A stretch of 64,000 nt of DNA from Planctomycetia bacterium (GTDB taxonomy: Bacteria; Planctomycetota; Planctomycetia; Pirellulales; Thermoguttaceae): positions 1 to 64,000 of the forward strand of contig JAUNBG010000018.1 in the NCBI GenBank assembly GCA_030527205.1. Reading direction: 5' to 3'. Each line of letters opens with the position of its first letter. The first letter of the stretch is position 1. This document shows positions 1-16,435 of the stretch, one piece after another. The position numbers and the translations under genes are program-made. The notes below the pieces were generated by a model. The model had not been told where the DNA came from. It was given only the letters and a program-made list of their open reading frames with translations, and searched no databases.

Positions 1-1590
1 GTTTGGCTTGTCGGGACGATCGGGACGAATTGGATTATCGGGACGGTTTGGCTTGTCGGGACGATCGGGAATTGGTCGCGGATGAGGTCCCGGTTTTATC
101 GGATGGGTTGGATGGAAGGGGGCAGGTCGCGGCGGAAACAAAGGTCGCGGCGGAATATGGGGAACCGGCGGTCGTCGATGATTAAAATAAAAGTCAGTAT
201 TCCAAAAGGGATCATGAGGACGAAAGCCAGAAGGAATATAAATTGGAGTAATCAATGGCAACCAGGATCCGATATAAAAATTCAAACGTCCGCGATTGAA
301 TGACAGTCCAAAATTAACATTAACGCCAGGCGGAGCCCAGGGATTGTAACAAGGATGAGGAATAAACGGTTTGACCCAAACGCCATAATGCGGTCGATAT
401 ATCCAAACGGTTGGATAAAACATTTGCCAAGCGGGTTCGTAAAAATAAGGATTCAGATAATAATCGTCGATAACGGAATTATAACGATTTGTTGTATGAT
501 ATTCAGTAATATAATTATTGATAATAGTTTCATTAACCGGTTCCGGCAGTTCCGCTTCATCAATAGGCTTTTCGATTTTTTCTGATAATTGAATGATTTT
601 TTCAGGAGTTTCCTTCAAAAACTCCGCTTGCAAAGGATGAGAGCCAAGCCAATAAATTTGACCCGTTGTCTCGTCAAGCAAAGCTCCAATAAGGTTAATT
701 GCGTCATTTTTCAACAGATCGTTGACCGTTGAAGATTGCATTAAAATGGCTTCCATCGATTGCCAGACAATCGCTTCGGCAACAAGGTTGACGAGTTCGT
801 TTGGGGGCAAATCAGGATAGGCGTTTCTTGCTCGAGCAATTGCAGGCCCGACGAGATTATAAAGTTGAATCAGTTGATCTTCAGGAGTTTCATTTGTTGT
901 TTTAAAAGTTTGAGTTGAAGGGTCAATTTTTGCGATCTCTTCTTTTGCTTTTGATTCCAATTGATCAAATTGCGTAATAAGTTTCAGGAGTTCATCGTTT
1001 GGGAATACCGATAGAACGACAACAAGGGGCGTTTGAAGGTTTGTAACGCCAAACTCTAAATCCGCCAGTTCATTTGGAGAAAAAGTTTTCCTGTTCAATG
1101 GGACCTGATATAGGTCGCTTGAGTTCAATTTCATATATTCGGACGGCAACGACTTCATTTCCGAACTATAAAAAACGGTTGCGATCGGCAATGGGTTTTC
1201 TCCCTGAATCAGGGTCGGCAATTCGTTGACCGTTTCGGTTTCCTGACCTAAATATCGAGCATTGCCAGCAACCAAATAACGATAAGCATCAGTTGGCGTC
1301 AATGTTGACGGATCAACATTTTCCAATAAAGGACTTGCAGGCAAGGTTAAAGTTTGAGGCGTTCCAAAGATATTTGAGCTAAAAATTGTTGTTGCTGTAA
1401 TAACAAGCGTCCAAACAACAAAAATGTTCAAAGAAGTCGGGAAAAAATGATTGCCAGACTCAAAATGTTCAGGCAAGGTTTTATATTGACTCCAGAACGG
1501 GCGAGAGGCTTTGTTTTGAGTAATCGGCCCGAAGTTGTCGGTTTTATGAACGCAAAATCCGGGGGGGACAACAGGTTTGAGCATTAACAT
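1..1590 (-). CDS. Membrane-anchored beta-carbonic-anhydrase-like protein lacking zinc ligands (3' end outside window)
   Basis: Translation of the complement from ATG at 1588-1590 stays open to the left edge (530 codons, no stop), so the gene is truncated by the window. An AGGAGA Shine-Dalgarno lies just upstream (about 1597-1602). One membrane segment is at about residues 54-76. Residues about 99-330 follow the beta-carbonic anhydrase pattern: DAYRYLVAGNARYL, a PIATV strand, a TPLVVVL strand, and a terminal INLIGALLDETTGQIYWL strand. The normal Cys-Ser-Asp-Ser-Arg zinc/acid motif reads Tyr141-Ser-Ser-Glu-Met, and the His-x-x-Cys ligand pair reads Val195-x-x-Asn198. All the zinc ligands I can align are therefore lost and carbonic anhydrase activity is unlikely. 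After the domain comes a Tyr/Asn/Pro-rich stretch and a Pro/Arg tail with RPDRPDKPN-type repeats. The family assignment is an inference from motif order. The role is unknown; a surface or scaffold function is possible. Confidence 0.72.
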   Translation of the reverse strand, partial: MLMLKPVVPPGFCVHKTDNFGPITQNKASRPFWSQYKTLPEHFESGNHFFPTSLNIFVVWTLVITATTIFSSNIFGTPQTLTLPASPLLENVDPSTLTPTDAYRYLVAGNARYLGQETETVNELPTLIQGENPLPIATVFYSSEMKSLPSEYMKLNSSDLYQVPLNRKTFSPNELADLEFGVTNLQTPLVVVLSVFPNDELLKLITQFDQLESKAKEEIAKIDPSTQTFKTTNETPEDQLIQLYNLVGPAIARARNAYPDLPPNELVNLVAEAIVWQSMEAILMQSSTVNDLLKNDAINLIGALLDETTGQIYWLGSHPLQAEFLKETPEKIIQLSEKIEKPIDEAELPEPVNETIINNYITEYHTTNRYNSVIDDYYLNPYFYEPAWQMFYPTVWIYRPHYGVWVKPFIPHPCYNPWAPPGVNVNFGLSFNRGRLNFYIGSWLPLITPIYIPSGFRPHDPFWNTDFYFNHRRPPVPHIPPRPLFPPRPAPFHPTHPIKPGPHPRPIPDRPDKPNRPDNPIRPDRPDKPN

Positions 1591-2051
1591 GACAGAGTCT
1601 CCTGATTTTTTGTTGATCTTTTTGTTTCATAAATTGGTTTATTGGAAGAGAAATAATTCAAAGGGATTTCAAATCGATCTTCTTATCGTTTTTTTGCGTT
1701 TTGAGTCAAAGAATCGTTTCCTTTTCTTCTCATTTTAAATTCATTGCTCAGAGCTTGTCTCATTTGCGGAAACAGGAAAGGATCAGCAATTTGGATTGAA
1801 TTATTCAAGCCAAATAAAAATCCTGGATCGTTGGGGGCCAATCTGGCAACGCAGAACGGATTATCGAGGACAATGCCCGTTTTTTATCTCGGCTTTATTA
1901 TAAACGAAATCAAGGCAAAGTCGCTTCTGAGCAATTGACGAACTATTGATATTGTATGCGATTCAAAAGAGTTTATTTAAAAAAATATCATTTTACATAA
2001 TATTTTTTTCATATTTTTATTTCGAAAATTGATTTTGTTGTCAAAACAAGA
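1591..2051. other. Intergenic region, no supported gene
   Basis: The 461 bases between the start of the carbonic-anhydrase-like gene and the stop of the U32 gene hold no convincing coding sequence. The reading frame at 1744-1938 has no Shine-Dalgarno and no recognisable protein pattern. The stretch is AT-rich, especially 1970-2040. The promoter of the leftmost gene is probably here, but I see no clear -35/-10 pair. Confidence 0.5.
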
Positions 2052-5000
2052 TTAAAAGATTCCTTTTGTGAACCCATAGGAATGCGTCGAATATGAATCG
2101 CCTTTCTTCGAACGAATCGCGCGATTAATAATGGAGACGATTTCCGATTCAGATTCAATAGAAAAATCGAAACGAAGTTCATCCAAATTTAACGTTTCGA
2201 TCCAAGGAATAGCGTCAATCAAATCAAGAGGTTCGCTATAATAAACGGAACTTCCGGTCATTTTACTGTTTTGATTTTTGAACCATTGATTGTTTTTAAC
2301 AACGGCAATGTTTCGGCCATCCTGATTGATTAAATCCGTAATTTTTTGAGGGAAGAGCGTTTTTCGCGTAAACATTGCCGCAAGATGTCCATAAATGTTC
2401 AGCCCCAATCGAACAGGTCGATTTGGAAAACAGGAGTCTCTTTTTTGAACGATTTCGGAACAAGCCCTTTCCGATAATTCAGGGGAAAGAAAAACGGTTT
2501 TGAGATACGGAAAACGTTCGCCATAAAATTGAATGGCTCTCCTATTTCCCATATTAAATGTCCAGTCAGCCGCAAAATCGATTCCTTGGTCATTAAAGAA
2601 AATCGCGTCAAATAACGATCCAGCTAACAATTGACCTTTGAAATCAGAATGTTGAAATGAATTATTGTTTGAAAGAGAGGCTGAAGTTTGATGAGAATCA
2701 TCGAATAATGAAGTTGATTGCGGAACGGTTGATTCGTTGAGAACAGACGTTTTTAATAAATGATGACCTTTGATTTGTTCCAACAGAAACATTTTTCTCT
2801 CATCGGAGGAATCTTGAAAAACAACGGGTTGAGTTAAATAATAAATTCGAGAAATGCCCATTTTTTGACAGGCCGCAAACTGTTCAGCAGTTCGGACAGC
2901 AGCCGAAAAAGAACTCAATCGATCTTTATTTCGGAGTCGGGTTGGACAATTTGTTTCATTTTCAGAAATTCGGTCGTCATTGTTGTTTTTACAAACGGAA
3001 AATTCGGAATTTTCCATTGATTTGAGTTGAGAACTTTGGTTCAATTGAATTCTTGGCGAATGATTTTTCTGCGAACTTGCTAATAGATTCAAGGGGTTAT
3101 TTTTCTCAAAATCATTAATATCAGTTAAATGGTTTGGTTGGCGAGATTGGGACAATTGGGTTGATTGGTTGTCTTGCGGAATTTGATTGTTTTGTGATCT
3201 GAAACGTCGATAAGAAAGGACAATTTTCTGTTCAAGGTCTTTTGTTGCTTTCTGTCGAAGTTGATTAAGAAGCGATCGGGGAATAAAAACGTCAGAATCG
3301 GCAGAAATCTCGCTATTTTTCATATAAAAAGGGGAATTGCCGAAACGATTCAAATCATTTTGGAGCTGTTGAAGGTTTGTTTTTATTTTTTGAGATTTTT
3401 CAAGCGGTTTATCCGAAACAATGCATATTTCAGCTCGATCATGACAAAGAACAAGCTCAAGCGGTTTGCCGCAATGAGCATTTAATCGAACATTGATTGG
3501 CAAATGACGGGTCGTTTGTTTTATTCTAAGTTCATTTCGTTTGTTGACGGCAATGTCAAATGTCTTGTTAAGAAAACAAGCGTTTTGAGGCGGAAGATTT
3601 TCTAAAATAATCTGTTGACCAGGAAAAGCAGCGTCAACTTGAATCGTTTCTCTTCTCTGAGCATTTTGGTAATATTGTTTTTGAGAATGCGTTGATCTGT
3701 CAGCGAACAACGGATTGTTATCCCGGTTCCTTTGAAAATCATTTTGACAGGAATGGTTTAAATGATTAGATAGAGAATTTTTTGAATTCTGCTTGGGATT
3801 TGATTTATTTTTTTTGAAATCATTAACGTTCTGATAAACGTTGTTTTCTTCGTTTTGTCGGGGAGAATTGCCCTTTTTTTGTAAATTGTCTGATTTAGCA
3901 ACAGGAATAACAAGATTGATTTTGTTGACATTCTGGCCTTCGATTTTGTGTTCCCAAGAATCCAAATAGACAACTCCGTCGCCGTTTCGAATGGAATCGG
4001 ATAAAGAAATGAAGCCGTTTTTAATTGTTCCGATTTTAAATCCATTATCAGAAGAGAAATTTGAATTGATCAAGTCGGGGTCATGTTCGTAAAAATATCC
4101 TTTTGCGTAACCGCGATTGAATATTTTTACAATTTCCAACTGATCAGGATATTCGTTTGAGACCGATGAAGAATGATCCATTGACTTGGACTTGCAATCC
4201 TCGTTTTCCAATGTTTTATTGACAGACTCCGAATGATTCTTTTGATTGAATATTGTTTTTGGGTTTGATTTTTTGATAGAACTATGATTAGTGTTTGGCA
4301 AAGATTCGTTTTCATTTTCGAGCCAGCTATCCGCTTTAAAGAAAAGTCGTTTCTTTTGTTCTTCCGAATCGACGCCGAGAAATTGATCGATAAGAGAACG
4401 ATAATAATGAACGGCTTCATAAACATAAACAGGAGACTTCATTCTTCCTTCGATTTTAATGGAATCAACGCCAATTTTAAGCAGTTGTTTTATTTCTGAA
4501 TATTGTTGCCATTGATCTTTCGTTGAAAGAAAATAGCCTTCGTTATTGAGCGATAAATGATTTGCGTTGCGAAGATCCGTTTTTGGGGATTGCGAAAAAT
4601 CGGAGTTAACATTGGAATAAGAATGCGAATCGACATTCAAAATCGAATAATATTGCCGACAAGGTTGCGTACACATTCCGCGATTGCCGCTTCGACCTCC
4701 GATAAAACTCGAAAGATAACATTTTCCGGAGCAACAAAGGCAAAGAGCCCCAGACGCGAAAACTTCCAATTCAATGGACGTCTTTTGACGGATTTTTTCA
4801 ATTTCATTCAGAGATAATTCTCTTGCTAAGACAGCGCGTTTGAATCCTTGTTTTTCGATCCATTGCAACTCATTAACGTTGGCCAGCGACATTTGCGTTG
4901 AAGCATGAAGCGGAAGATCGGGAAAATGTTCCTTCAACCATAAAACGACGCCCATATCCTGAACAATAACAGCGTCCAGCCCCGTTTGCCAAAGTTCAAC

Positions 5001-5240
5001 AATTTGCGACTTTATTTGATTGAGCTCTGCATCGGACATTATTGTATTTAATGTTAAATGAACGCGAACATCATTTCGATGCGCGAAATCAATCGCTTGA
5101 CAATATTCTTCAACAGAAAAGTTTGTTGCAAAACGTCTGGCTCCGAAACCGCTGATTCCCATATAAACTTCATCGGCGCCAGCTTTGATTGCGGCATTTA
5201 AACTTTCCGGACTTCCTGCGGGAGCCATAATTTTCAACAT
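2052..5240 (-). CDS. U32 family peptidase / RlhA-like 23S rRNA hydroxylation protein with low-complexity insertions
   Basis: The N-terminus (MLKIMAPAGSPESLNAAIKAGADEVYMG) and the cysteine signature CLCCSGKCYLSS...GNRGMCTQPCRQYY are typical of U32 proteins. U32 members such as E. coli RlhA (YdcP) work with prephenate in 5-hydroxylation of C2501 of 23S rRNA; others act in tRNA hydroxylation or ubiquinone synthesis. The length and internal DUF3656-like middle suggest the RlhA branch; this is inference. I start at ATG 5240, ten bases after AAAGGA; the frame also opens at TTG 5261. The protein is about 1062 residues, far longer than RlhA (about 650). The excess is in several N/S/Q/K-rich stretches (around residues 220-240, 300-370, 470-540, 740-830, 870-890) that interrupt an otherwise normal fold. 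It lies 68 bases after the TPR gene on the same strand, so the two may be cotranscribed. Confidence 0.88.
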   Translation of the reverse strand: MLKIMAPAGSPESLNAAIKAGADEVYMGISGFGARRFATNFSVEEYCQAIDFAHRNDVRVHLTLNTIMSDAELNQIKSQIVELWQTGLDAVIVQDMGVVLWLKEHFPDLPLHASTQMSLANVNELQWIEKQGFKRAVLARELSLNEIEKIRQKTSIELEVFASGALCLCCSGKCYLSSFIGGRSGNRGMCTQPCRQYYSILNVDSHSYSNVNSDFSQSPKTDLRNANHLSLNNEGYFLSTKDQWQQYSEIKQLLKIGVDSIKIEGRMKSPVYVYEAVHYYRSLIDQFLGVDSEEQKKRLFFKADSWLENENESLPNTNHSSIKKSNPKTIFNQKNHSESVNKTLENEDCKSKSMDHSSSVSNEYPDQLEIVKIFNRGYAKGYFYEHDPDLINSNFSSDNGFKIGTIKNGFISLSDSIRNGDGVVYLDSWEHKIEGQNVNKINLVIPVAKSDNLQKKGNSPRQNEENNVYQNVNDFKKNKSNPKQNSKNSLSNHLNHSCQNDFQRNRDNNPLFADRSTHSQKQYYQNAQRRETIQVDAAFPGQQIILENLPPQNACFLNKTFDIAVNKRNELRIKQTTRHLPINVRLNAHCGKPLELVLCHDRAEICIVSDKPLEKSQKIKTNLQQLQNDLNRFGNSPFYMKNSEISADSDVFIPRSLLNQLRQKATKDLEQKIVLSYRRFRSQNNQIPQDNQSTQLSQSRQPNHLTDINDFEKNNPLNLLASSQKNHSPRIQLNQSSQLKSMENSEFSVCKNNNDDRISENETNCPTRLRNKDRLSSFSAAVRTAEQFAACQKMGISRIYYLTQPVVFQDSSDERKMFLLEQIKGHHLLKTSVLNESTVPQSTSLFDDSHQTSASLSNNNSFQHSDFKGQLLAGSLFDAIFFNDQGIDFAADWTFNMGNRRAIQFYGERFPYLKTVFLSPELSERACSEIVQKRDSCFPNRPVRLGLNIYGHLAAMFTRKTLFPQKITDLINQDGRNIAVVKNNQWFKNQNSKMTGSSVYYSEPLDLIDAIPWIETLNLDELRFDFSIESESEIVSIINRAIRSKKGDSYSTHSYGFTKGIF

Positions 5241-5308
5241 TGATAAATATTCCTTTAACAAGAGATCACAAAAAGATCAGAAAGTTATTAATACAGGCAG
5301 ATTGGGAA

Positions 5309-6417: not shown

Positions 6418-9400
6418 ATGGAAAGCGGAATGAAAATGAGAATATTGTCAAGACAATCAAAGTTATTTGGTCGTCGAACGCATTGGATCGTTTTGGCTCT
6501 CTTTTGTTTTTGGGGATTTTTGAACATATCTTCTGTTTTGGCTCAAAAAGGACCGATTCCAAGAGAACATTATTATCGAGGACGTTCTTATCTGGAACAG
6601 GGAAATATAGCGGGCGCTTTGCAACATTATCAATCGGATTTGAAAAATGCAACTAAAATAGGAACAATGCGTTGGATTGATTCGATTTGTTATCAAGCGA
6701 TGATTGGCGAAACATTTTATATTTCCGGAAGAACAGAAGAAGCGCTTGCGGCTTTTGATGAAGCCATATCGCTTTATCTTCAATATCCGAAATGGCTGTC
6801 TCGAGTTAATTATCCAACGGGAATAACGACGATTCGGCGTCCCGATGTCCCTTGGGGACCGGGACGTCGAATGTCGCCCATTGGCGTTTTTCCTCTGGAC
6901 GCAACGATTGTTATTGGCGACGTTTTAACCAAAGAACGCATTAATCAAGGCGGAATGATTCGTCAACAGGAAATGCTTCGAATCGATCCAATGGAGATTT
7001 TGCGTTGTATGTCATTGGCAATTCGACGTCGCGCGGAAATACTTGGGCCTCTTTCGCGCTATGATCATCGAAGCGATGAAATTCTTAACGCTTTTTCAAC
7101 GCGTCAAATTTCGCCCAATCATTGGTCAGTAACCTGGTTTGATGTTTTGTTTGGACTTGCTCTGAAAGGAGCAGGAAAAAATGCGGAATCGCGCGATATT
7201 TTGAATAAAAGTCTTGTTATGGCCGGTCAATATGATCATAATTTGACCGGCGTCGTTTTACTTGAACTCGGAAAGTTGTATTTGTTGGATGAGCAAATTT
7301 CGGAAGCGGTTGATTGCTTTTATGAAGCCTCGATATCCGCATTTCATTTTGGCGATATGCTTCTTGTTGAAGAAGCGTTGCGTTATTATGCAAATGCGAA
7401 AAAAGCAATGGATCGTTTCGAAACAGATCCGGTTTTGTTACAGGCTTTTGAATGGTTCAAGCATCAAAATCGTTGTCAATTTATTCAAATGTCCTTGTCA
7501 GAAGAACTTGCCGAAAACTTTGTCAATATTCATCAGTTCAAGGCTGCGACTCAAGGTTTGAAAATGATTGAGTCCTTTATGAAGAATAGCGGATTACGGC
7601 AAAGCCGTTATGCAGATCGTTGGAATTATTTGAATGCGTTGCTTTTCTATAGCCGGGGAGATATAACGGAAGGGAATGTTGCCCTTGCCAAGACGGTTGA
7701 AGGAATGAAATTTCATTCGCATTGGGTTTTTCAAATTGCCTATCTTGACAACCTTTCGAAGACGGGCGGCTTGACAACCGGTTCAATGACGCTTCGCAAT
7801 GCAGCGGATCTTTATGAATATTTATTGAGAGAACCAACCGCAACGGATTGGGCGATTCAACCAATGGACTGCCTTGCGGTTCAAAATATTATTCCTCTTG
7901 GCGCCTTTGAACGTTGGTTTTTGATTTTGCAACAACGGGATTTAAGGGATAAAGCGTTTGATGTTGCAGAACGAACGCGTCGAGAACGCTTTTATTCAAC
8001 GCAAGAATTTGGCGGACGTCTTCTTTCTCTTCGCTATTTATTGGAAGCGGCGGAAAATTGTCTTCCTAATGAGTTCAAGATAAATCGACAAGATATTTTG
8101 ATTGAATTTCCCGAATACAATCAATTGTTAAAGGAAGCCCGTCAGATAAAAACCAAACTTCATTCGCTTTCGATCTCCCCCAAAAGTTCCGAAGAAAAAA
8201 CGCTTCAGAATCAACTTTTGGTCGAGTTGCAAAAAATAAGCGCCGAACAAGAGTCGATTTTGTATTATATGGCGGCGAGTCGAATACGAATTCCAGTAAC
8301 TTTCCCGCCAATAAAAACAGCGAAAGAGATTCAAAGCGCCATTCCAGAAGAAACGTCAATGCTTACTTTTTATGAAGCAGGCGGCGATATGTATGCGTTT
8401 ATGTTGACTCAGGAAGTTCTTGATTGCTGGCGAATAGGTTCGACTGACCGTTTGAATGTTCAGATCGCAAGTTTTTTGAAAGGGCTTGGCTGTTCAGATG
8501 GAAGCAAGCCGATTCAAACAAAGGATATTGTTGGCAATACGAAATGGCAGGAATCAGGCAAGAACTTGCTTTTAGACATTTTGGGAAATCCTAAATCCGG
8601 GGGCGAACGTTTCAATGTTGTTTTTAAACATTTGATTATTGTTCCTGAAAAATCGCTTTGGTATTTACCTTTTGAGGCTCTTTGCATTCCGGGCGTTCAA
8701 AGTCAATCGGAGTCAGACGAAGAATCCAAAGAGCAAGCGACTTCTGTAACAGACCAAGAGGGTCAAAACGATCAAAACGTTCAAGTTGATGACGCAATTC
8801 AGGATTCATTGGAAGTTGGTCCGAGTCAATCCGATTTAATTGAGGAAAACGGGAATAAAACGAAACAAGTTGCCCAATCCTTGCCGAAAAAAGAACGTCT
8901 GCCGAAAAAGGTTCAAGCAACCAAAGATTTGGTTTCCTTTTTGGCGGTTCCCGATTTGACGATTCGATATGCAGCGACAGCCGGTTTGGGAATTCCTGGC
9001 CGCTTGGGTCGGAGTTCCTTTGTTGAAACGGCAGTTGTTCCTGGCCTTCTTTATCCGAATGAACCGGAAAAAAATCAACAAGGCGCTTTATTCCGTTTAT
9101 CGCAGAATATTTCGCAAATGGTTGTTTTGGCAAGAGAAAGTTATGCGGTTCCTTCTTCTGTTTTGAGTGTTCGATTAAAGCAATTGATTGTTTTGAACGA
9201 AATTGTCGGAAACAATCCGAATTCATATAATTGGATTCCTTTTTTAGCCAACAAACAAAAAACCGCCAATAGTATCCTTCAATGGATTCGACTTCCCTGG
9301 GGAGCGCCGAGATTGATTATATTGCCTGGTTTCCGATCTGGAGCAGAAAATGCTTTAAAATCAAATACTGACGGCAATGAATTTTTCTTTTCGATTCTTT

Positions 9401-10263
9401 CAATGCAGGCGTCAGGGGCAGACACAATTTTAATGAGTCGCTGGAGAACCGGCGGTCGTTCGTCTTATGATTTGGTCAACTTTTTTATGGAAAATATCCG
9501 CTCAATGGATTATGCTTCCGCTTGGAAAAAAGCAGTTCAATCGCTTTGGACGACAGAAATTGTTTTGAATGAAGAACCTCGTTTAAAAGGTCTTCTTCCG
9601 AAAGATAAATCGGTTTGGGTTGATCATCCGTTTTTTTGGAGCGGTTTTATGTTGATATCTCCAGGCGAGTCTAAGGTTGTTATTGATGATTCGGAAGAAG
9701 TAAACGGCGATTATCTCCCGGAAGAATTATCTGAGGAAGAAATCAAAAAATTCAAAACGGAAAAGAACCGTAAGGCCGCTTCGGAAGATAATCCGTCTGC
9801 GACTTCCAATGAAAACAAGATTGAAGGCGATATTGAAACGACGTTTGATGATGTCGATTTGAGTTCCGATTATTCGGATACGGAAGAGAATAATGGTCTT
9901 GAACCAGTCATTCGCGTTCCAGGAAATTCGTCAGACAATCAGGATGATTTGGATAAGTCAAGCGGTCAGGAGAAGCCAAAGAATTCGGGAGATTTGGAAG
10001 AAATCGACGGTTTGAATGAAGAAAACGGATTGAATCCAAAAGAAACAGCCCCCCAAACAGTTGATCAAGAAATTTCGAGAGAAATGCCTCAAAAGCCCGA
10101 TTCAAAAAATGAAACGCGTCCAGTCGCTCCGCAACCGATAACGGATGAAGATATTGAAAAAGCGGATCAAGAAGCCGATGACTTTTTTTCTCAAAATGTC
10201 CCCCCAAAGACCGGGAAAAAGGAAAAAGATTCCCCAAAATCGGAAGAGCAGCCGAAAAAATGA
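6418..10263 (+). CDS. Exported TPR plus degenerate CHAT-domain protein
   Basis: A 1281-residue protein with a hydrophobic N-terminal signal or anchor (about residues 18-42, ending near VLAQ). Alpha-helical TPR-like repeats fill about residues 45-500, followed by a helical linker and a CHAT domain at about 660-1090. The CHAT core is recognisable: LIIVPEKSLWYLPFEAL, then IRYAAT, and a final HPFFWSGFMLI. The region that should contain LSACxTG reads LPGFRSG (residues 969-975), so the nucleophilic cysteine is Phe972. No histidine occurs in the preceding stretch where the catalytic His should be. It therefore looks like a caspase-fold pseudoprotease. About 80 acidic low-complexity residues interrupt the CHAT domain near 765-840. 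The last roughly 185 residues are an acidic, Lys/Pro-rich disordered tail. The first ATG (6418) is used; ATGs at 6430 or 6436 have better upstream purines. The stop overlaps the next start (ATGA). Confidence 0.82.
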   Translation: MESGMKMRILSRQSKLFGRRTHWIVLALFCFWGFLNISSVLAQKGPIPREHYYRGRSYLEQGNIAGALQHYQSDLKNATKIGTMRWIDSICYQAMIGETFYISGRTEEALAAFDEAISLYLQYPKWLSRVNYPTGITTIRRPDVPWGPGRRMSPIGVFPLDATIVIGDVLTKERINQGGMIRQQEMLRIDPMEILRCMSLAIRRRAEILGPLSRYDHRSDEILNAFSTRQISPNHWSVTWFDVLFGLALKGAGKNAESRDILNKSLVMAGQYDHNLTGVVLLELGKLYLLDEQISEAVDCFYEASISAFHFGDMLLVEEALRYYANAKKAMDRFETDPVLLQAFEWFKHQNRCQFIQMSLSEELAENFVNIHQFKAATQGLKMIESFMKNSGLRQSRYADRWNYLNALLFYSRGDITEGNVALAKTVEGMKFHSHWVFQIAYLDNLSKTGGLTTGSMTLRNAADLYEYLLREPTATDWAIQPMDCLAVQNIIPLGAFERWFLILQQRDLRDKAFDVAERTRRERFYSTQEFGGRLLSLRYLLEAAENCLPNEFKINRQDILIEFPEYNQLLKEARQIKTKLHSLSISPKSSEEKTLQNQLLVELQKISAEQESILYYMAASRIRIPVTFPPIKTAKEIQSAIPEETSMLTFYEAGGDMYAFMLTQEVLDCWRIGSTDRLNVQIASFLKGLGCSDGSKPIQTKDIVGNTKWQESGKNLLLDILGNPKSGGERFNVVFKHLIIVPEKSLWYLPFEALCIPGVQSQSESDEESKEQATSVTDQEGQNDQNVQVDDAIQDSLEVGPSQSDLIEENGNKTKQVAQSLPKKERLPKKVQATKDLVSFLAVPDLTIRYAATAGLGIPGRLGRSSFVETAVVPGLLYPNEPEKNQQGALFRLSQNISQMVVLARESYAVPSSVLSVRLKQLIVLNEIVGNNPNSYNWIPFLANKQKTANSILQWIRLPWGAPRLIILPGFRSGAENALKSNTDGNEFFFSILSMQASGADTILMSRWRTGGRSSYDLVNFFMENIRSMDYASAWKKAVQSLWTTEIVLNEEPRLKGLLPKDKSVWVDHPFFWSGFMLISPGESKVVIDDSEEVNGDYLPEELSEEEIKKFKTEKNRKAASEDNPSATSNENKIEGDIETTFDDVDLSSDYSDTEENNGLEPVIRVPGNSSDNQDDLDKSSGQEKPKNSGDLEEIDGLNEENGLNPKETAPQTVDQEISREMPQKPDSKNETRPVAPQPITDEDIEKADQEADDFFSQNVPPKTGKKEKDSPKSEEQPKK

Positions 10264-11990: not shown

Positions 11991-12001
11991 AAAGGATGAT
12001 T

Positions 12002-15000
12002 ATGAATAGTCTTTTCTATCCGATCAATATATCAAGAATCAATATAAAAAGAAACCATTTTTTGAAATTATTTATTCAATGGAACGGAATTCTTTTCTTT
12101 TTTTTGTTTTCTTTTTTGTTTCAACTCAATGCTTCAGCGCAAGGTTGGTCAATGTATATCGACCAGATCAAAGAGGAAGCCAGGAAGGAACAGGAAAAAC
12201 TCAAAGATATTGAAAACAACGATTCCAGTTTTCAACATCCCGGCTCAATTTCCAATTCGTTGCAGCAAATTGATCATGTTGAACGTTCTGCTAACCAAAA
12301 TAATATTGATTCAAACAATATTCCTTCTGATTCGTCATTTCAGTCAGAAAAAGTTTCTCGACCTCGAAAGTCAACTCGTCAGGGGTCGAATGATTTAAAA
12401 CTTTTGGATTTCTCCGGCCTTTTGGGAGAAGAAGACAGCATTAATGTTGACGATTCATCGATTCAGGAAGATCAAACGTTCGAAATCTCAGAAATTCAGG
12501 CGAATTTAAAATCGTCTCCGCCTTCCTATCGAAATTTTATCGAAATGAAAAACGATGCTTGTTTGAATGACATTTTTTTTATCAATCAACAACAAGGTTG
12601 GGCCGTCGGAGATCGAGGAACGATTTGGATAACATTTAATGGCGGCGAACAATGGCTTCTGTCGGATTCTCCGGTCAATTGCAATCTTTTTGGCATTCAT
12701 TTTTTTAATGAACAATTGGGAATTATTGTCGGAGGAACCGTTCTTCCGGGCTCCGCGAACGGAAAAGGGGTCATTTTGCGAACCGTTGACGGCGGTCGTT
12801 CCTGGTCGGAAATTTCGAATGCCTCTTTTCCCATTTTAAGAAAAATTAAAATCATTGCTCCGAATAATATTTGGATTAGCGGCGATTCTTCAGAACTTTA
12901 TCCGAGCGGCATTTTTTTGAGTCAAGACGCGGGTTTAAATTGGACGCCTGTTTCAAGTAATCGCCATGAAGGTTGGAAATCGTTGGTTTGGGATTCCTCG
13001 AACCATTGCGGAGTTGGAGTCAGTTTGGAAGGAACGGTTCAACAGGCTAAAAAAACAGTTCGTCCTGTTTCCTTGCCGACAGTTGGAAAACGACGTTTCA
13101 TCGATTTGAGTCAGGGAACAGTTTCCGATCCGATTTGGATGGTTGGGGAAAATGGCTTGGTTTTGTTTTCTAATGATATTGGAGAAACCTGGCAGCGTCC
13201 CCTTGGCGTTTTGCCTGTTGAGGCCTCGGATTATTTTGATTTTTCAGCCATTTTTTCCAATGGATCTCATATCTGGATGGCAGGAACTCCCGGAAGTCTC
13301 GTTTTTTTCAGTTCAGATTCCGGTAATTCTTGGAATATCGGGGTTACTGGAATTAAGGTTCCTCTTCGCAAGATTTATTTTATCGATCCGATGAATGGTT
13401 GGGCCGTTGGAGAACTCGGTAATATTATTGCGACGCGAGACGGCGGTCAAACTTGGTCGATTCAGCGGGAAGGCGGACGACGACTCGCATTATTGGGACT
13501 TTTTACGAAAAGCGACGACATTCCTTTTGAAGCTTTTGTTCAATGGGCGGGCGATGAAGGTTATTTAATTCAGACATTATTATTGGCAAGAGAGGAAAAA
13601 AGGGAAAAAACAACCGATGAAATTCCGGATTTTTTGCGAGTTCGAGAAGCTTTGATTGAAACTGGAACGAGCGGACTTCTTCAGAATGGGGCATTTATTC
13701 TGGATTCAGATGATTGGAATCGGTCAATCAAAAATATTTTGGAACGGTTTGATCGCGAAAATGATGGCAAAGGTTTGGATAAATTTCGAGAGACGCTTGT
13801 TCGCCAAATTCGAATTTGGCGTCCTGATGTTCTTCTTATTCGAAAAGAGGTTAGGAACCCCCGTCGTTCTGAAGAATCAACAACGAAATCAAATAACGAA
13901 ATGAAGCGGGATTTATATCGAATTCAAACCGATTCAACGTTCCAGGCAAATTCAGAGCAATCAAATATCGCTCAAACAAATGCAAAGGCTCAAAATGATC
14001 ATTTTCAAATCATTACAAAACGGGATGTTGAAGAAATTGGTCTGGAAAAGAAAGAATTGGCGAATCCGACTGATCTGGCTAGTTCGTTAAACTCGACCAA
14101 TGCGAAAAATCCGACAAAAACCGCAAGTTTGGCCGATCAGGTTGAGGCTGGGCATTTGGCAAATTCTAACGAAGCTGCAAATCTGGCAGATTTGATAAAA
14201 ACAACAAATTCGGCAGAAGCGATAAGTTCGGCAAAAGCAACAAATTTAGAAAACTCGGTTTATTCGGCAATTCCATTGGATTCGGTTGAAAGAACAAATT
14301 TGAACAATTCAAATGAGACAGAAAATCCGATCAAGTTGGATAATCTTGCTGAAGTCGGGCAAAAGTCAAACGGATTGCCTTTGCCTCAAGAGTTATCAAA
14401 AAATGCCGAAATGAATAAAGAAGCGATATTTCGTCAAAATAATGAATCGATTCAACAAATGGATCATTTTCAAAACGAGAATATAATTGAAACAAATATT
14501 TCGAATCGAAACGATTTTTCCGAATTATCTTTTACAGATTTTATTGAAAACGAGCTTCCTTTGGCCATTCGTTCGGCAGCAGATCCGTTATCATATCCTG
14601 AGCATATAACGCAATGTCATTTAGAACCTTGGGCCGTTTCAAAAGTTTATCGAATCGAAACAGATCAAGAAAAAGCGAGTTATATATCAAACGATTATCA
14701 GAACACGGAAAAGGAAATCATAAATAATCATTCTGTAAATCAAATATCACATAACGAACAAAAAGTAAAAATTGGTTCCAATTTATCAAAAACAGGAACA
14801 AAATATGATTATTGCATTAATTCGTCCTATTTTTGTTCGACATTGGGACGGTCAATTGAAGAGATTGCGCAAAATGCGCGGAATTATTTGAGATCCGATC
14901 TAACAACGGTTGCAAAGCAGACAAATTTTAACGTTCTTTTGAATCGAACCAACCAAAACGCTGTTCCTTCATTAAGCGGAATTAACTCTTTGGCAAACGT

Positions 15001-16435
15001 TTTTGAAAATTCCATTTTTTCCGGATTAAATTTATTGCCAGGCGGAGAAGCTCGGCGTCCTTTTCAAAGGGGGTTGCTTGATCATCGAAACGAACTGCTT
15101 GAAAGAGCGGCAACCCGGCGTCAAAATTTGGGCATTATGGAGAAAATGACTCGCTCTGCAATGAAAGATGGTCGTTCCAACGAAATGATGTTGTCGCATA
15201 TTAATCGAATGATTCTCGGAATGGATTCTGATATGGCGATTGAATATTTGAATAATCTTGGGAAAAATCTTTATCGCCAGGGAAATCTAACGGCAGCGGA
15301 AGAAGTTTTTTCAACGCTTGCTTTGGAATTTCCGACAGATCCCAAGAGTCGCGAAGCATTGATTTGGCTCGTTCAATTTTATGCAGGAAAAGAACCAACT
15401 TGGCGAACTCAGGAGAAAAATCGGATTCAACAGTCGAATAGTCGCTTGACGCAAAACGGTTTGGACGGAAATGCGTCGTCTCGATTGGCTCTTGATTCTT
15501 CGAAAACCAATTCCCGATATCGAAACGCGGATCAATTGGGAAAATTGATTCGAGAGCTTCATCCGGAGCTTTATATGAATCCTGAAGTTCGTTTTCCGCT
15601 TGCAATGATTCAACGAGAACGCGGATTCACGAATAGCGCTTTACAATATTATATGACTCGCGGCCTGATTTCAAAAAATGATCTTTGGGGGATTCGCGCT
15701 CAAGCAGAATATTGGCTTTTGACGCCTCATCGCGATCAGCTTCCGCCGGAAGATCGATTTTGTCCGCTTTCGATGATTAACTGTCAAATTGCGCCCGCCA
15801 AACCGTTTCTTGATGGAATTCTCGAACCGGAAATCTGGAATTCAGCCAAAGGAATCTCGCTTTCTCAGGAACGAATGAAGCCCGATCCCAAAATAATGAC
15901 TGACGAACAGAAAAAAATCGAAAAGCAAAAAACTCTTTGGCAGGAAGAAAATAAAAAATTGTCAACCGAGTTTGGAACTTGCGTTTCGTTATTATATGAT
16001 AAGGATTTCTTATATATGGGAATTCAATGTCGAAAAGTATTAGAGTTTTCCTATATAACCGACAAATCGCCCCGATTTCGAGAAGCGGATTTAACGCCAT
16101 TTGATCGCATCGAGATTCAACTTGATCTGGATCGGGATTACTCAACGGCTTTTCGTTTCGTCTTTGATTATCGCGGTTGGGCCAATGAGTCTTCTTGGAA
16201 CGATCCGAATTGGAATCCCCAATTATTTATTGCCCAGCATGAAACGGATGACCTTTGGTCTCTGGAAATAGCGATTCCTTGGGAACATATTTGCGAACGT
16301 CCGCCGACTCGCTATGAAGTTTGGGCTCTTTCAATGCGACGAATTATTCCGAATGTTGGGCTGGAATGCTGGAACGTCGATAACTCATGCAACGGAGAAA
16401 ACGGTTTTGGTTTTTTAACTTTTGGGCTGCTTTGA
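12002..16435 (+). CDS. Giant exported YCF48-like beta-propeller protein with C-terminal CBM9-like domain
   Basis: About 1477 residues. I start at ATG 12002, five bases after AAAGGA; an upstream in-frame ATG at 11996 is too close to it. A signal/anchor segment at about residues 22-46 ends with NASAQG. Residues about 180-500 carry repeated Ycf48/BNR-type blades: GWAVGDRGTIWITFNGGEQW, GVILRTVDGGRSW, GNIIATRDGGQTW. Next comes a helical region beginning DDIPFEAFVQWAGDEGYL, then about 300 residues of low-complexity Asn/Ser/Ala-rich sequence (roughly 630-930). A TPR-like segment lies near 1065-1130. Residues about 1255-1477 resemble the CBM9-like fold: PFLDGILEPEIWNSAKG, LLYDKDFLYMGIQC, DRIEIQLDLDRDYSTAFRFVFD and WSLEIAIPWEHI. 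The likely role is envelope or extracellular binding; no enzyme active site was recognised. It appears monocistronic, followed by the tRNA region. Confidence 0.75.
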   Translation: MNSLFYPINISRINIKRNHFLKLFIQWNGILFFFLFSFLFQLNASAQGWSMYIDQIKEEARKEQEKLKDIENNDSSFQHPGSISNSLQQIDHVERSANQNNIDSNNIPSDSSFQSEKVSRPRKSTRQGSNDLKLLDFSGLLGEEDSINVDDSSIQEDQTFEISEIQANLKSSPPSYRNFIEMKNDACLNDIFFINQQQGWAVGDRGTIWITFNGGEQWLLSDSPVNCNLFGIHFFNEQLGIIVGGTVLPGSANGKGVILRTVDGGRSWSEISNASFPILRKIKIIAPNNIWISGDSSELYPSGIFLSQDAGLNWTPVSSNRHEGWKSLVWDSSNHCGVGVSLEGTVQQAKKTVRPVSLPTVGKRRFIDLSQGTVSDPIWMVGENGLVLFSNDIGETWQRPLGVLPVEASDYFDFSAIFSNGSHIWMAGTPGSLVFFSSDSGNSWNIGVTGIKVPLRKIYFIDPMNGWAVGELGNIIATRDGGQTWSIQREGGRRLALLGLFTKSDDIPFEAFVQWAGDEGYLIQTLLLAREEKREKTTDEIPDFLRVREALIETGTSGLLQNGAFILDSDDWNRSIKNILERFDRENDGKGLDKFRETLVRQIRIWRPDVLLIRKEVRNPRRSEESTTKSNNEMKRDLYRIQTDSTFQANSEQSNIAQTNAKAQNDHFQIITKRDVEEIGLEKKELANPTDLASSLNSTNAKNPTKTASLADQVEAGHLANSNEAANLADLIKTTNSAEAISSAKATNLENSVYSAIPLDSVERTNLNNSNETENPIKLDNLAEVGQKSNGLPLPQELSKNAEMNKEAIFRQNNESIQQMDHFQNENIIETNISNRNDFSELSFTDFIENELPLAIRSAADPLSYPEHITQCHLEPWAVSKVYRIETDQEKASYISNDYQNTEKEIINNHSVNQISHNEQKVKIGSNLSKTGTKYDYCINSSYFCSTLGRSIEEIAQNARNYLRSDLTTVAKQTNFNVLLNRTNQNAVPSLSGINSLANVFENSIFSGLNLLPGGEARRPFQRGLLDHRNELLERAATRRQNLGIMEKMTRSAMKDGRSNEMMLSHINRMILGMDSDMAIEYLNNLGKNLYRQGNLTAAEEVFSTLALEFPTDPKSREALIWLVQFYAGKEPTWRTQEKNRIQQSNSRLTQNGLDGNASSRLALDSSKTNSRYRNADQLGKLIRELHPELYMNPEVRFPLAMIQRERGFTNSALQYYMTRGLISKNDLWGIRAQAEYWLLTPHRDQLPPEDRFCPLSMINCQIAPAKPFLDGILEPEIWNSAKGISLSQERMKPDPKIMTDEQKKIEKQKTLWQEENKKLSTEFGTCVSLLYDKDFLYMGIQCRKVLEFSYITDKSPRFREADLTPFDRIEIQLDLDRDYSTAFRFVFDYRGWANESSWNDPNWNPQLFIAQHETDDLWSLEIAIPWEHICERPPTRYEVWALSMRRIIPNVGLECWNVDNSCNGENGFGFLTFGLL

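Follow-up and report, generated by a model that had tools for sequence, protein, structure and literature searches.

The protein encoded at the edge of a planctomycete contig carries a domain with the fold of a β-carbonic anhydrase (β-CA) and without the zinc site of the enzyme. The domain is almost certainly a zinc-less β-CA pseudoenzyme, and is presumably devoid of catalytic activity. Taken as a whole, the findings are best explained by an exported pseudo-β-CA that was turned from an enzyme into a scaffold of the cell envelope, a reading to which we assign a probability of roughly one half.

The window, the whole stretch of DNA analysed, comprises 64,000 nucleotides of Planctomycetia bacterium (Thermoguttaceae; GCA_030527205.1, contig JAUNBG010000018.1, positions 1-64,000, forward strand). 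The contig is 68,396 bases long; the genome measures 3.95 Mb in 102 contigs. The gene lies at the low end of the window (Table 1), where the contig end at base 1 cuts off the C-terminus of the protein. From the N-terminus, the product consists of a 51-residue stretch, a hydrophobic segment, the CA-like domain, a Tyr/Trp/Pro-rich region (below, Tyr/Trp region) and a tail of Pro/Arg repeats.

Table 1. Features of the pseudo-CA gene and its product (positions refer to the window)
Feature	Residues	Position	Strand	Basis or remark
Whole gene in the window	530 aa	1..1590	(-)	ATG at 1590; frame open at the low end
Putative Shine-Dalgarno-like AGGAG		1599..1603	(-)	8 nt upstream of the ATG; read from the sequence
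Hydrophobic segment, membrane anchor or signal sequence	52-75	1366..1437	(-)	Hydropathy and homologues
β-Carbonic-anhydrase-like domain	95-327	610..1308	(-)	PF00484, profile, model, fold search, tree
SSEMK replacing CSDSR	142-146	1153..1167	(-)	First zinc Cys and dyad Arg lost, Asp changed to Glu
VFPN replacing HxxC	195-198	997..1008	(-)	Zinc His and second Cys lost
Tyr/Trp/Pro-rich region	360-473	172..513	(-)	16 invariant positions in 21 sequences
Pro/Arg-rich low-complexity tail, start only		1..171	(-)	RPDRPDKPN-type repeats; cut by the contig end

The carbonic anhydrase-like domain and its former zinc site

Fold and homology place the domain in the β-carbonic anhydrase superfamily. Because the Pfam score of the window protein alone is below threshold, the case for homology rests on relatives, profile and fold. 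In a Pfam scan (hmmscan) the window protein matched PF00484 at 19.7 bits (E 0.0011; curated cut-off 25.7) over residues 234-312 only, and no other domain was detected. The single NCBIfam hit was a carbonic anhydrase model at a sub-threshold 18.5 bits (cut-off 221), and a phmmer search of the PDB with the sequence of the window protein alone reached a β-CA only at E 2.2.

A search of 99 related genomes yielded eight full-domain homologues, including the window protein, and seven weaker matches. PF00484 was matched by all eight aligned family domains scanned at E ≤ 1 (best E 1.5e-8). When PF00484 was searched against whole genomes, 13 of the 22 family members exceeded the cut-off, two of them only when neighbouring pieces of frame were added, and all 13 belonged to genus g21. 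The window protein and the other members of g1 and g26 were absent from this search at E ≤ 0.001, at which the window's own genome gave no match at all. The PF00484 match expected in the original prediction therefore holds for the family and not for the window protein taken alone.

The eight-member profile, run against the PDB with hmmsearch, found the Mycobacterium tuberculosis β-CA Rv3588c (E 6e-5). Alignment of the family with five canonical exported β-CAs by hhalign gave a probability of 99.9% (E 4.9e-32) over 204 columns with 30% identity. In plasmids, tblastn with the window domain hit four records, all annotated as carbonic anhydrase (21-28% identity, best E 1e-7); among the viral contigs searched no relative was found.

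An AlphaFold2 monomer model built from 21 sequences covers residues 93-475 of the window protein. In its CA part (model residues 1-240) the mean pLDDT was at least 79 in 18 of 24 ten-residue blocks, and 50 in the lowest. The model matched Rv3588c in Foldseek (E 1e-10) and in VIA-align (PDB 1ym3; Z 21.1, rmsd 2.5, 181 residues aligned), and the best 50 matches listed in each fold search were β-CAs or the β-CA-related carbonyl sulfide hydrolase. The strand order of β-CAs and the GALLDETTG block (residues 302-310), which had been pointed out earlier from the letters of the window, were borne out by the model, the fold search and the profile alignment, and the predicted fold is that of a β-CA.

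The defining features of the β-CA metal site are the Cys-His-Cys ligands and the Asp-Arg dyad; neither set is intact in the family. In the 21 aligned homologues the position of the first zinc Cys is occupied by Ser (12), Ala (seven) or a gap (two), and that of the second by Ser (18) or Asn (three). The 22nd member, from genome G126, which stands outside the 21-row alignment, carries Asn in place of the first Cys and Ser in place of the second, so that both cysteines are absent in 22 of 22 members. The zinc His is retained in 15 of the 21 sequences; the others have Gln (two), Asp (two), Arg (one) or, in the window protein, Val, and the five g26 members all have Gln, Arg or Asp here. The Arg of CxDxR was kept in none of the 21. 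Loss of the two zinc cysteines, proposed for the window protein in the original prediction, is thus a property of the whole family. The motif VxxN in place of HxxC had been read correctly; YSSEM had not, the equivalent of CSDSR being SSEMK, one residue further on.

The dyad Asp persists in 20 of the 21 zinc-less members (L016-L035) despite the loss of its Arg partner and of both cysteines; the window protein has Glu in its place (residue 144).

The remainder of the domain was compared with 50 canonical β-CA domains, in which 45 columns are at least 80% occupied by a single residue; in 15 of these at least 80% of the pseudo family retains that residue. The canonical rows used here and in the trees were picked by C[SAI]DSR and HxxC, and these motifs therefore stand at 100% by construction; five far rows were dropped from the comparison. 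Among the kept columns are the helix-1 L..GN, EY, the VV core strand, Pro 249, Ser 286, Ala 303 and Gly 310, and among the lost ones both Cys, the Arg, the AGN loop and the GA after HxxC. An invariant Pro, new in the pseudo family, directly precedes the second lost Cys. Set against β-CAs in general (PF00484, Pro_CA; nearest solved structure Rv3588c, PDB 1ym3 and 2a5v), the family has in common with them the fold, the strand order, the helix-1 and EY motifs, a TPL-VV core strand and a TG near the C-terminus. It differs from them by the loss of the zinc cysteines (22 of 22) and of the dyad Arg (21 of 21), by altered AGN and CGA loops, and by the addition of an inserted stretch after the HxxC site, the Tyr/Trp region and the tail.

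Because the Asp and often the His persist, the main rival to a scaffold is a zinc-free anion sensor or receptor, in which the old pocket would bind bicarbonate, CO2 or a small anion and signal to the Tyr/Trp region or to a partner. The retained Asp and His and the new invariant Pro fit such a role. However, the window protein itself has exchanged His for Val and Asp for Glu, the g26 members vary at the His position as described, and the window protein has no further Pfam domain; we consider a sensor unlikely. The same Asp and His, together with the Ser that replaces the second Cys in 18 of 21 sequences, occupy former ligand positions and might form a Ser/His/Asp cluster, or accommodate another metal, that catalyses a different reaction. 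Yet the His is lost in six of the 21 sequences, the window protein among them, and three have Asn instead of Ser, whereas the rest of the domain is conserved. A catalytic set should not vanish in part of a clade, and we regard an enzyme with a changed site as very unlikely. The constraint still acting on the Asp and the His is also a point against a pure scaffold, which would need neither.

Spread, descent and selection

The pseudo-CA was detected in 22 of 119 genomes of the bacterial family: four of g1, 13 of g21 and five of g26. The 20 named relatives are MAGs of Thermoguttaceae and other Planctomycetota, and the titles of nine refer to the gut of goat, water deer, water buffalo or yak. In a phylum sample of 392 genomes the best match beyond the window's own gene had an E value of 6.7e-20. 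Inspection of 29 other loci from this sample revealed no further pseudo member: 26 had CxDxR and HxxC, two were SulP-like fusions with CIDPR and HTRC, and one frame was too short to judge. In these two fusions (L100 and L101) an N-terminal part that resembles, by eye, a SulP transporter is joined to the β-CA domain; the CIDPR replacing CSDSR keeps the zinc Cys, the Asp and the Arg, the second Ser having become Pro. Two other loci of Planctomycetota, L098 and L108, encode two canonical β-CA domains in tandem within a single ORF. Four PF00484 matches (L092-L095, in genomes G040, G015, G027 and G134, which are without the pseudo-CA) were left out, no carbonic anhydrase frame being seen in the four longest ORFs of each.

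In the tree the 21 aligned pseudo members form one side of a branch with an SH-aLRT of 100. For a more careful tree, five far rows, other long rows and 11 pseudo members were removed; the ten pseudo members that stayed had a branch support of 100/100 and a stem measuring 1.44 substitutions per site. The exported canonical β-CAs of the same bacterial family (e.g. L009, L010, L014) resemble the pseudo family in their N-terminus, which looks like a signal peptide by eye, and L009 also has in common with it the WLG.HP at the domain end. They differ in having intact zinc ligands and no Tyr/Trp region.

Of the 22 genomes that carry the pseudo-CA, six also encode a canonical β-CA; in the other 16, the window's own among them, none was found (PF00484, E ≤ 0.001). 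The completeness of the 16 genomes is 76-91%, which makes a chance absence from all of them unlikely. In the window's own genome there was also no match to the α-CA family (PF00194). β-CAs are dimers, and the pseudo-CA could be imagined to pair with an active β-CA in a heterodimer, as a partner subunit that regulates or stabilises it. The enzyme CsoSCA, as described in PMC11086599, pairs an active with a defunct, vestigial half, and in the six genomes an active partner would be at hand. Since no canonical β-CA was found in the other 16, such a role cannot be general, and as an account of the family we regard it as very unlikely.

Low dN/dS values were obtained in close pairs. For the CA-like domain they ranged from 0.011 to 0.230 in the 13 pairs with dS below 0.5 (14 of 54 pairs listed); the 14th listed pair had a dS of 1.05 and a dN/dS of 0.42. 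For the Tyr/Trp region the range was 0.020-0.285 in 12 pairs with dS below 0.6 (14 of 20 pairs listed). The window gene, which has no close pair, is in none of those listed. The values indicate a selected protein rather than a decaying one; for the lineages that supply close pairs, at any rate, the family is under purifying selection.

That the window gene is decaying, or an assembly artefact, might be suspected from its truncation at the contig edge and from its end branch, at 0.47 the longest among the four g1 members. Against this stand the dN/dS values of the relatives, the lack of a stop codon inside the match in all 22 genomes, the common architecture and the Shine-Dalgarno-like site. 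The truncation is accounted for by the repetitive tail: the contig also ends inside the tail in 12 of the 20 named homologues (L016-L018, L020-L022, L025-L028, L033, L035), and this kind of tail seems to break assemblies. The chance of decay or artefact appears negligible.

ORFs around the 20 homologues and the window gene were clustered. Neighbours were common within g21 and within g26; the g1 members have none in common, and at the thresholds used no linked gene was common to different genera, which also speaks against a sensor. Judged by eye, the neighbours resemble housekeeping genes, among them genes similar to those of leucyl-tRNA synthetase, phenylalanyl-tRNA synthetase and phosphoglucomutase. 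The gene neighbourhood gives no hint of function.

Three other long frames of the window were recorded. Positions 2052-5261 (-) encode a 1069-aa protein of the U32 peptidase family (PF01136 at 81-305, DUF3656 at 565-680). Its domains are separated and followed by long low-complexity stretches rich in Asn, Gln and Ser, which look unusual for that family. The 1281-aa product of 6418-10263 (+) combines TPR repeats with a match to the CHAT domain (E 1.6e-7) and ends in a long, acidic tail of low complexity. The 1479-aa product of 11996-16435 (+) matches YCF48/PSII_BNR and, below threshold, sortilin, and is likely a β-propeller.

N-terminus, Tyr/Trp region and tail

The hydrophobic segment of the window protein (residues ~52-75) reaches a hydropathy peak of 1.74 over 19 aa. 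No counterpart of the 51-residue stretch in front of it was seen in the named homologues, read from their first ATG. All 20 of them have a hydrophobic, signal-peptide-like segment near the first ATG. Loose AxA-like motifs were also looked for; one homologue, L026, had none in the stretch scanned. To judge from these sequences, the protein is probably exported, and its location may be the periplasm or the surface. The original prediction had placed a membrane anchor in front of the domain. A hydrophobic segment is indeed there; it may be such an anchor or a cleaved signal peptide, the segments of the 20 named homologues being signal-peptide-like.

In all 20 named homologues the CA-like domain is followed by the Tyr/Trp region. 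Among the 119 family genomes this region was found only in the 22 with the pseudo-CA, once in each, in the same frame and after the CA-like domain; in some genomes not all candidates were scored, the maximum being 38. The two were not found combined in any of the other genomes searched. Pfam scans of five proteins assigned no family to the Tyr/Trp region and gave one sub-threshold match, in one tail. There was also no carbonic anhydrase match after the CA-like domain in the window protein (with its C-terminus cut) or in L016, L019, L023 and L032. Modelled alone, the Tyr/Trp region had a pLDDT of 49, and confidence was low also in context.

The Tyr/Pro-rich region and RPDRPDKPN-type repeats noted earlier in the window protein are real, and the repeats are short within the window: Tandem Repeats Finder (TRF) reported a period of 18 with 2.6 copies at 19-64. 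In the 20 named homologues the Tyr/Trp region is followed by a low-complexity tail. Eight of their ORFs reach a stop and, counted between stop codons, measure 646-1258 codons; in one of these, L029, the tail contains an N gap. In the G126 member (L052) the frame of 499 codons ends without a Pro/Gly/Arg tail, at what may be either a stop or a contig edge. The net charge of the CA-like domain lies between -4 and -20 in all 21 proteins. That of the tail is +5 to +59 in 20 of 21, many of the tails being incomplete; the tail of L033, also incomplete, is net acidic. The tails are presumably disordered.

Proposed role and related systems

The export-type N-terminus, the zinc-less fold and the constant aromatic region with mostly basic tails make a scaffold the simplest reading. 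The binding or scaffold function suggested in the original prediction is compatible with this arrangement of parts. The pseudo-CA has probably changed from an enzyme to a cell-envelope protein with a structural or binding function; the narrower role of envelope scaffold we propose tentatively, at a little under even odds. The protein would descend from β-CAs, perhaps from the exported β-CAs of the same phylum. It would cross the inner membrane by means of a signal peptide or, in the species of the window, remain attached by an uncleaved anchor. Its domain would fold like a β-CA and be unable to hold the catalytic zinc. A stable core, probably dimeric to judge from the wider enzyme family, would then serve as the scaffold. 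In the periplasm or on the cell surface it would present the conserved Tyr/Trp region and a long, presumably disordered Pro/Gly/Arg tail of mostly basic charge. There the region and the tail may bind or cross-link components of the envelope or the matrix.

Known systems resemble parts of this arrangement. According to PMC11086599, the C-terminal β-CA domain of CsoSCA has lost its zinc site and lies near the allosteric RuBP site. The likeness to the pseudo family is a β-CA domain without its zinc site. In CsoSCA, however, the vestigial domain is fused to an active CA domain, in carboxysomes, whereas the pseudo family has a single PF00484 stretch with no active partner domain, an export-type N-terminus and, often, no canonical β-CA found in the genome. 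The carbonic anhydrase-related proteins (CARPs; vertebrate VIII, X and XI) and the η-related TgCA_RP of Toxoplasma, which is GPI anchored, are described in PMC5437132 and PMC6609565 as inactive CA relatives with other roles. They too are CA folds without the full zinc ligands that were kept for other purposes, but they are of the α- or η-class and occur in eukaryotes and viruses, and the window protein, like its genome, is without a PF00194 match. Nacrein-like shell matrix proteins, as presented in PMC4066178, combine a CA domain with low-complexity repeats in an extracellular matrix; being α-class, molluscan and reported active, they provide an analogy only. Passages on pseudoenzymes and carbonic anhydrase in PMC4207490 have no bearing on a pseudo-β-CA family.

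In the open-access literature searched, no report of a stand-alone bacterial pseudo-β-CA family was found. Zinc-less CA proteins are known in the α class, and the sole β-class example found in that literature is the half-domain inside CsoSCA. We therefore suggest, with slightly less confidence than an even bet would express, that the proteins form a stand-alone β-class CA-related family of bacteria. In it an exported enzyme would have become an envelope or matrix scaffold by losing its zinc and by acquiring, through fusion, a new Tyr/Trp/Pro-rich region together with disordered tails that are mostly basic. Such proteins would belong to Planctomycetota from animal guts and other places, and in most of their genomes no canonical β-CA was detected.

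The family bears on annotation. The 13 of 22 members above the PF00484 cut-off could be called carbonic anhydrases in spite of lacking both zinc cysteines, and such an annotation could mislead on CO2 handling in these planctomycetes, given the 16 genomes in which no canonical β-CA was found. Its members also separate the residues that keep the fold from those that serve catalysis. A stand-alone family under selection would show that the β-CA fold can be reused without its metal.
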